A stretch of 64,000 nt of DNA from Psychrobacillus psychrodurans (lineage in GTDB: Bacteria > Bacillota > Bacilli > Bacillales_A > Planococcaceae). Numbering within the stretch: the first letter of the stretch is position 1; each line of letters begins with the position of its first letter. Shown piece after piece: positions 13,647 to 53,515 of the stretch. The DNA lies in assembly GCA_900114885.1 (NCBI GenBank), contig FOUN01000007.1, positions 1 through 64,000 on the forward strand, written 5' to 3'. The translations under genes were made by a program, and so were the position numbers. Below the pieces are notes generated by a model. That model did not search any database. It was not told where the DNA came from and saw nothing but the letters and a program-made list of their open reading frames with translations.

Positions 13647-13865
13647 TTATTTAAAACGGTACGTAATACGACCGCGAGTTAAATCGTAAGGAGAAAGTTC
13701 AATTGTGACTTTATCTCCAGGTAAAATACGAATGAAATGCATACGAATTTTACCCGATACATGCGCAAGTATCGTATGACCGTTTTCTAATTCTACCTTA
13801 AACATCGCGTTTGGCAAAGTCTCAACAACTGTTCCTTCGACTTCAATTACATCATCTTTCGCCAT
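13647..13865 (-). CDS. infA: Translation initiation factor IF-1
   Basis: A 72-residue OB-fold protein starting [11 protein letters not shown], with the [17 protein letters not shown] core. IF-1 binds the 30S A site during initiation. The ATG at 13865 has GGGAG nine bases upstream and is preferred over the in-frame TTG immediately before it. Directly upstream is the map relic rather than the normal map gene. Confidence 0.97.
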
Positions 13866-13961
13866 CAACCCTGTCTCCCTTCTATATACAAATCAGGTTC
13901 TCATCAAAACTCAAACGTAATTTGCTGTTAGTATAGCCTCTAGTAGAACGAAACTATTCGT

Positions 13962-14150
13962 TCAAGCATATGTTTGGAAATCATGAGAGATGTTCGAAAG
14001 ACACTCGTAAGGTTTCGCTTTTAGCAATCCACGGAGTAGACTCTCCCTCATGTCAACATGTTCGTACGAATGTGTTGGATGAGTTCCATAGTACCCGTTC
14101 GTTACACAGATGCTTCCACGAAACCCATTATACCCCGTAAGTATTATAAA
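13962..14150 (-). pseudogene. map: Decayed methionine aminopeptidase gene (map relic)
   Basis: In the adk-infA interval, exactly where map lies in Bacillales, the minus strand encodes GYNGFRGSICV (about 14135-14103), then NGYYG and, near the end, ESLLRGLLKAKPYECLSN followed by ISHDFQTYA and a stop. These match, in order, the Map segments GYNGFRGSICV, NGYHGDS, and ESLYKGLEEAKPGERLSDIS with HAIQTY. The pieces between them are deleted, the region after QTY is gone, and the N-terminal helix is not recognisable. The ligand-bearing segments (ELVHGIP, IDIGAKYNGYHGDS, GHGVG, EPM) are lost or altered, so no activity is possible. I see no other gene in 13866-14302. Confidence 0.85.
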
Positions 14151-14302
14151 TGCACGTGGACAAGGGAGTCCCCGCTTTTGATGCATTTCTTTTCCTCCGA
14201 ACGTATACCGGGCGCAATATGCTTTTGCAGCTCTCGAAAAAAACATTTTCGTTCTTTGCATACTACCCGGGTATTCAGTCGTCTGCGACAGGCACCGGGC
14301 AA

Positions 14303-15016
<714 letters not shown>

Positions 15017-45986: not shown

Positions 45987-46025
45987 CTTGGCACCTCCTA
46001 TAAGAATTGGCCATTTATACCGACA

Positions 46026-46150
46026 AAAGAAAAGCCTCTGTTCTACGAATAGACACAGAGGCAGAAAGTCATCATCTTAAAAGAATCTGAATTTACTTGT
46101 CCTCGGTAGGAAATTAAGCAGTTTATTGCTCCTACTGTCTTCGGTACAAA
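46026..46150 (-). ncRNA. L10 leader with attenuator hairpin
   Basis: Minus strand shows a conserved CCGAAGACAGTAGGAGC ... CTACCGAGGACA core (about 46096-46145), then a strong GCCTCTG/CAGAGGC hairpin (46034-46062) followed by TTTTCTTTT. This matches the Firmicute L10 (L12 stalk) leader: the complex binds the core and favours the terminator ahead of rplJ. Confidence 0.9.
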
Positions 46151-46172
46151 TGTATATTTAACAACAAAGGTC

Positions 46173-53212: not shown

Positions 53213-53440
53213 AAAAAGTCTCTGTCTATAAATATAGACAGAGACGCAGTTAGCGCGGTTCCACTCTGATTGGAAAAATATAAATACTTTCCCCACTTTG
53301 CATCTTTAACGCAGATGTTACGTTCAGCCTACTTAGAAGTTCGGCATGACGCTCGGAGGTGCATTTCAGTAACTCGTAGGCTCAGACCACTTTCAGCCGG
53401 TGATGGTCCTCTCTAAAGAACGTGCGTTACTTACTTCTCC
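53213..53440 (-). ncRNA. Cysteine T-box riboswitch with terminator
   Basis: Minus strand shows a Stem I region (AGTAAGTAACGCACG... GAGTTACTG), a specifier bulge reading AAATGCACC with the UGC cysteine codon at 53361-53363, the T-box AGAGTGGAACCGCG (about 53253-53266), and a terminator stem GTCTCTGTC/GACAGAGAC (53218-53244) followed by a T run. Uncharged cysteine tRNA would stabilise the antiterminator and turn on cysE-cysS. The rest of 53183-53515 holds the promoter area, with no gene; TTGACT just after gltX is a candidate -35. Confidence 0.95.
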
Positions 53441-53515
53441 TCTTCTTCGCTTTGCTATTCTTTTTACTTCGAATTTGTATCACCATTTTCACACCTTGTT
53501 AGGGGAAAGTCAATC

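Follow-up and report, generated by a model that had tools for sequence, protein, structure and literature searches.

What has become of map, the methionine aminopeptidase gene, between adk and infA of Psychrobacillus psychrodurans, and why can its pieces still be read? A sequence-only reading of positions 13962..14150 of the window (the whole analysed stretch of 64,000 nt) had proposed a decayed map gene on the minus strand whose remains are 'still readable'. Readable they are; what that reading missed is that the loss goes back as far as the family itself and that the remains, conserved base by base, are under selection. We consider it probable (roughly 0.75) that map survives at this locus as a unitary pseudogene, its DNA kept for regulation. 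The remains would be readable because they are selected, and the map pieces nearly unchanged because the switch of the infA operon most likely lies inside them.

What is left of map

Over 2.7 kb around adk the sequence shows 96.0% identity to Psychrobacillus sp. OK028 and 95.7% to P. antarcticus, in keeping with a place in or near Psychrobacillus. The ORF list holds no intact map on the minus strand of the adk–infA interval, which is laid out as follows.

14303–14956, minus strand: adk, the upstream neighbour (ORF list; match in 61/61 genomes)
13962–14235, minus strand: what remains of map, a methionine aminopeptidase gene of the adk-linked type, spread over several frames (tblastn: E 1.4e-13 and 4.6e-4)
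14067–14086, minus strand: frame-shifted VNEELVHGIPG part of map, the source of NGYYG (alignment with other genera)
13873–13883, minus strand: infA Shine-Dalgarno region, AGAAGGGAGAC (sequence alignment, coordinates from the window)
13647–13865, minus strand: infA (IF-1), the first gene behind the presumed promoter, ATG at 13863–13865 (ORF list, in which infA starts at a TTG just upstream of this ATG)

The map remains occupy approximately 13962–14235 and, with the leader included, the reach extends to the infA Shine-Dalgarno at 13873–13883. The proposal of a dead map gene withstood comparison with chance: with the intact adk-linked Map of genome G049 as tblastn query, the interval aligned at E 1.4e-13 with a score of 118, and the best of 200 shuffled controls scored 41 (0/200 as good). 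The alignment runs GYNGFRGSICVT...LSNISHDFQTYA. A second piece, ELQKHIAPGIRSEE, was found in another frame (E 4.6e-4), within 14202–14235 and just beyond; it sits outside 13962..14150 and had been overlooked.

Of three ordered Map pieces named previously, GYNGFRGSICV and ISHDFQTY (more fully SNISHDFQTYA) are true pieces of Map. The third, NGYYG, is a chance match. It is paired with NGYHG of Map by tblastn across a 29-column gap, and an alignment of sister genera puts the stretch in the VNEELVHGIPGKRV part, in a shifted frame; the same place in interval L023 reads ELIQGIPSGRV, the VNEELVHGIPG part of Map. As had been noticed, the parts carrying the metal ligands are missing from the remains: the tblastn alignment has gaps where SIDIGAK and DSAW would stand and ends before the GHGVG block, these three blocks being presumably the carriers of the Map metal ligands. 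Homology to map, a position at which outgroups have intact orthologues, and a broken frame are thus all found at this locus, as in a unitary pseudogene.

The age of the loss and the second aminopeptidase

Relatives do carry map at this position: among the 13 class members whose region was read, 10 have an intact copy directly downstream of adk. Within the family, all 127 adk–infA intervals read (110 distinct; the named and unnamed sets among them may contain one species twice) measure 294–615 bases, too short for map, and by score no adk-type Map was present in any of 120 genomes of the order, all 120 being from this family. It had been proposed to date the loss through sister species; the event turned out not to be local, and on the intervals compared the loss of map is as old as the family. 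Also missing from the interval (13870–14302 here) is the small KOW-domain gene seen next after map in a number of the class members; it had a match in 0/25 family genomes versus 8/16 class members.

The expectation that another map must exist was borne out. One intact Map above the TIGR00500 cut-off is found in the same genome on another contig (G000:C25:58097-58837), and a Map match over the cut-off was present in 119/120 genomes of the order, with none in G118. Replacement by a paralogue elsewhere is likewise supported, in that the remaining Map belongs to another MetAP type, an ancient one. A midpoint-rooted tree of 35 Maps (L186 omitted, as no Map was obtained) places the 9 family copies in one clade with support 100/100 on a branch of 2.17, and all 12 adk-linked maps fall outside it. 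Second copies from G049, G051 and G022, the last a family member, also belong to this deep clade, as do the sole over-cut-off copies of G044 and G045. As G049 and G051 hold both MetAP types, both probably predate the loss. Judged from this tree, map is replaced by an ancient, deeply separate MetAP paralogue.

Bacillus subtilis offers a parallel, with two MetAP types in one lineage, either sufficient if expressed enough (PMC1266368). According to that paper both B. subtilis MetAPs are active, map is essential and yflG dispensable, the map promoter exceeds the yflG promoter 50- to 100-fold in strength, and YflG is similar to the sole putative MetAP of Staphylococcus aureus; searched by word, the paper gave no occurrence of infA, adk or pseudogene. 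Given this difference in promoter strength, a take-over would presumably call for stronger expression of the paralogue. G044 (interval L115) and G045 (L111), also of the class, have likewise lost map between adk and infA, and their best Map lies in the same deep clade as the family Maps. Their intervals are short and, unlike those of the family, showed no map pieces by eye.

Nucleotide constraint and a candidate promoter

The remains include three conserved islands, the first two flanking a promoter-like pair that is here called P2.

14202–14235, minus strand: island 1, from map codons ELQKHIAPGI (17/19 genus representatives, identity 0.814 versus 0.466)
14150–14155, minus strand: -35-like hexamer GTGCAT of P2, derived from map codons G-A-I; TATAAT follows after exactly 17 nt
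14127–14132, minus strand: -10 hexamer TATAAT of P2, from map codons Y-N (interval scan; top synonymous constraint in intact maps)
14100–14126, minus strand: island 2, derived from map codons GFRGSICVT, where the presumed transcript begins (GTATAATGGGTTTCGTGGAAGC and GGGTTTCGTGGAAGCATC matches, constraint switch)
13982–14002, minus strand: island 3 block GTCTTTCGAACATCTCTCATG, from map codons RLSNISH (GTCTTTCGAACATC in 97/127 intervals)

A search of 84,980 species genomes for the exact 24-mer TATAATGGGTTTCGTGGAAGCATC gave 70 stretches, the carriers being by title Planococcus, Planomicrobium, Lysinibacillus, Psychrobacillus, Solibacillus, Viridibacillus, Caryophanon, Paenisporosarcina, Chryseomicrobium, Tetzosporium and one 'Bacillus sp.'; in 0/70 of these stretches does an open frame of >163 aa run through it. 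With up to 3 mismatches, the 22-mer GTATAATGGGTTTCGTGGAAGC matched 175/261 family genomes, as against 6/261 for the reversed control pattern. Misses cluster by genus (2/68 matched in genus g3, 1/8 in g4, 0/3 in g6, 0/2 in g8), and 172/180 genomes of the remaining 15 genera matched. In g3 the promoter has been kept and most of island 2 lost. At up to 2 mismatches the 18-mer GGGTTTCGTGGAAGCATC was found in 99/127 intervals and the 14-mer GTCTTTCGAACATC in 97/127.

An ordinary pseudogene still decaying, and readable only through recent loss, would account for map pieces that stand in order with irregular gaps between them. This is very improbable, being contradicted by conservation between genera. 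The loss is shared by 127/127 family intervals, and across 19 genus representatives the fourfold sites of adk (45 sites) agree at 0.466, versus a pairwise identity of 0.814 for island 1 (17/19 representatives, located by an anchor in its own core). A 36-nt window at island 2 agrees at 0.633 and a 58-nt window at island 3 (15/19) at 0.622. The longer windows of islands 2 and 3 are thus less conserved than island 1, and the 31 nt from the -35 to the -10 stand at 0.464.

Constraint on the map remains has changed from protein to nucleotide. In the seven codons that follow the -10 at island 2, 24 intact maps from a different order of the class agree at 0.931 in codon positions 1 and 2 and at 0.453 in the third, whereas 18 remnants agree at 0.752 and 0.732, respectively. 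Third positions stand at 0.402 in intact maps versus 0.815 in remnants at island 1, and at 0.386 versus 0.785 at island 3, with remnant identities raised here as both islands were located by anchors inside themselves; island 2 gives the clean figure because it was anchored only on the -10. Third positions are now as constrained as the others, and a coding stretch has therefore become constrained base by base.

This bears on whether a small protein is still made from the remnant. A 99-aa ORF (13962–14261) is indeed open in the window, although with E up to 10 it matched no NCBIfam family, so that the full-length profile TIGR00500 (type I methionine aminopeptidase) is not matched either, and only pieces align with Map in the tblastn comparison. 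Both islands could be located by pattern in 84/127 intervals; between island 2 and island 3 the phase is 0 in 44 of these, 1 in 26 and 2 in 14, and a map-frame stop lies between the islands in 26/84. Together with former third positions as constrained as the rest, these counts make a surviving protein very improbable.

In remnants of the family, [AG]TGCA[AT] lies exactly 17 nt upstream of TATAAT, which precedes island 2. The TG of the -35 (positions 2–3) together with TATAAT is present in 104/127 intervals, taking the best-scoring site per interval, and the full P2 pair in 14/19 genus representatives (absent from L024, L026, L029, L030 and L107). A -10 identity of 1.0 in the remnants follows from site selection, and the L029 site was wrongly picked; degraded forms of the -10 in some genera are TATAAA, TATAGA, TATATC and GTGTAA. 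The 17-nt spacer, formerly PSFKG codons, has decayed in sequence and kept its length, also in g3 intervals, and its positions 1–12 agree at 0.316 in the remnants, below the 0.466 of adk fourfold sites. The P2 -35 is non-consensus, far from TTGACA, and a sigma-70 scan returned 2 promoter-like sites versus 3.6 expected, with the P2 site not among them. Transcription from P2 would be expected to start near 14120.

Island 1 also reads CTGCAA (14225–14230), 17 nt and TATACG (14202–14207), a second promoter-like site. In some genera with a degraded P2 this site reads TTGCAA with TATATA or TATACA, and its -10 was not seen in the intact maps surveyed. From its sequence the second site is a candidate promoter only.

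Intact maps point to an origin of P2 inside the living gene. Synonymous constraint in the 24 intact maps of the other order, computed with sixfold codon boxes split, peaks at AIPSFKGYN (rank 1/213 windows), and the twelve most constrained windows all overlap the promoter pair. Of 30 loci, 26 passed the motif search; L242 and L257, with other residues in place of PSF.GYNGF, were dropped, which left 24. Each of the 24 comes from another family, and the null for the constraint ignores kinship among them. Codons at the peak spell [AG]TGCAA-N17-TATAAT, with Asn as AAT in 24/24, Ala as GCA in 20/24 and Tyr as TAT in 22/24. By motifs on the proper sides, adk lies upstream and infA downstream in 24/24, and TATAAT stands 653 to 926 nt ahead of infA. 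Counted by hand, TG and TATAAT at the 17-nt spacing occur in 21/26 intact maps of the order of G049 and in 1/11 further maps of the class, for which the order was not established.

The infA-rpoA-rplQ transcription unit of B. subtilis starts upstream of infA (PMC4495994), and it is alike in being the same operon with its own start below adk, whereas the available text of that paper does not place the promoter inside map. Among the literature matches listed, none concerned, by title or start of abstract, a map remnant or a promoter inside map. It is likely that [AG]TGCAA-N17-TATAAT in intact maps is the infA-operon promoter, and the simplest reading is that a B. subtilis-type infA promoter was embedded in map before map was lost.

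As a mechanism for a dead gene kept for regulation, we propose that in the ancestor and in the other order of the class the promoter of infA-rpmJ-rpsM-rpsK-rpoA-rplQ would lie within the map reading frame, its -35 written by Gly/Asp-Ala-Ile codons and its -10 TATAAT, 17 nt apart, by Tyr-Asn. In the ancestor of the family a pre-existing second methionine aminopeptidase would have taken over and map would have decayed. Sequence not needed for transcription would have drifted, with the promoter hexamers and the 17-nt spacing staying in place, and the transcribed part of the dead map would have become the infA 5′ leader, under a base-by-base constraint of its own. P2 would accordingly serve as a sigma-A promoter, here or in species with an intact map.

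The infA leader and the legacy of map

A promoter alone leaves the frozen DNA downstream of the start unexplained, and the transcribed remains may act as a leader. The presumed transcript starts near 14120 and runs approximately 255 nt to infA. Within it the following arms are candidates for pairing.

14118–14125 and 14105–14113, minus strand: candidate 5′ helix arms within island 2 (RNAalifold and arm swap test)
14011–14034, minus strand: candidate 3′ arms GCGAAACC (14011–14018) and CCGTGGATTGC (14024–14034), from map codons RGL.EAKP (RNAalifold in two of three clade sets, swap test)

The kept pieces could act mainly as RNA, with island 2 pairing with the stretch before island 3 and GUCUUUC covering the infA Shine-Dalgarno, which would place IF1 and the alpha operon under feedback or temperature control. 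By our own reading, GTCTTTC in island 3 is complementary to GGGAGAC of the infA Shine-Dalgarno. RNAalifold pairs GGUUUCGU with GCGAAACC in 2/3 clade sets, although a different pairing is predicted for the Planococcus-type set. L176 and L177, both of genus g4, carry differing arms, yet these pair at -36.8 and -31.5 kcal/mol, each beating 132/132 swaps; genera g10 and g18, with a degraded -10, retain GGGTTTCGTGGAAGC; and L024 has lost the loop and appears to us to be left with a short hairpin. Over the 101/127 intervals (68 distinct) of the arm swap test, however, the mean rank was 0.345 versus 0.5, with most g3 intervals at 0.42 or worse, and the ranks of L024, L030, L108, L156, L158 and L170 say little because short loops clip their arms.

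Covariation likewise speaks against such a fold. Under a tree-aware null (FastTree tree, substitutions re-dealt on branches, 40 simulations) no pair passed, with 0 at E <3, among 108 sequences, which were the 127 intervals less exact duplicates and the insertion-bearing L161 and L163. These two g3 genomes share an insertion site in the leader, after GTTGAAGGAAGCTTTAACTTGA, where each has approximately 190 extra bases that may be a small mobile repeat. The leader folds at a mean z of -0.57 (n=21; reverse strand -0.04), with the start misplaced in some intervals, for example L028, L107 and L167, whose lengths exceed the leader. No Rfam family reached its gathering score in the adk–infA interval, where two snoRNA matches (E 1 and 2.6) were far below theirs. 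A role mainly as RNA is therefore doubtful to us, and so, a shade more, is the fuller proposal that dead map codons became the arms and anti-Shine-Dalgarno of a folded leader atop a formerly hidden promoter. Masking of the infA ribosome-binding site by a folded leader is possible.

Further structure is seen nearby. From the adk stop to island 1 the mean fold z is a modest -1.43 (n=19; reverse strand -1.06). Right after adk, at 14266–14299, CCCGG...CCGGG can form a hairpin, the inner stem of which reads GUCA/UGAC in L021 instead of GUCG/CGAC. The 3′ half of this hairpin can also pair with the CCCGG that ends island 1, so two exclusive folds are possible. Elsewhere in the window, Rfam matched a piece of 16S rRNA at 1–70 and, on the minus strand, an L10 leader at 46019–46162 (82.1 bits) and a T-box leader at 53237–53456 (116.5 bits).

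The preferred reading remains that of a dead gene kept as promoter: it seems that a promoter hidden in the living map outlived that gene. One stretch of DNA that held code and, seemingly, a promoter has lost the code and kept the rest, and the change can be traced position by position between genera. In many relatives of Bacillus the infA-rpoA-rplQ promoter likely lies inside map, and some silent changes there would be non-silent.
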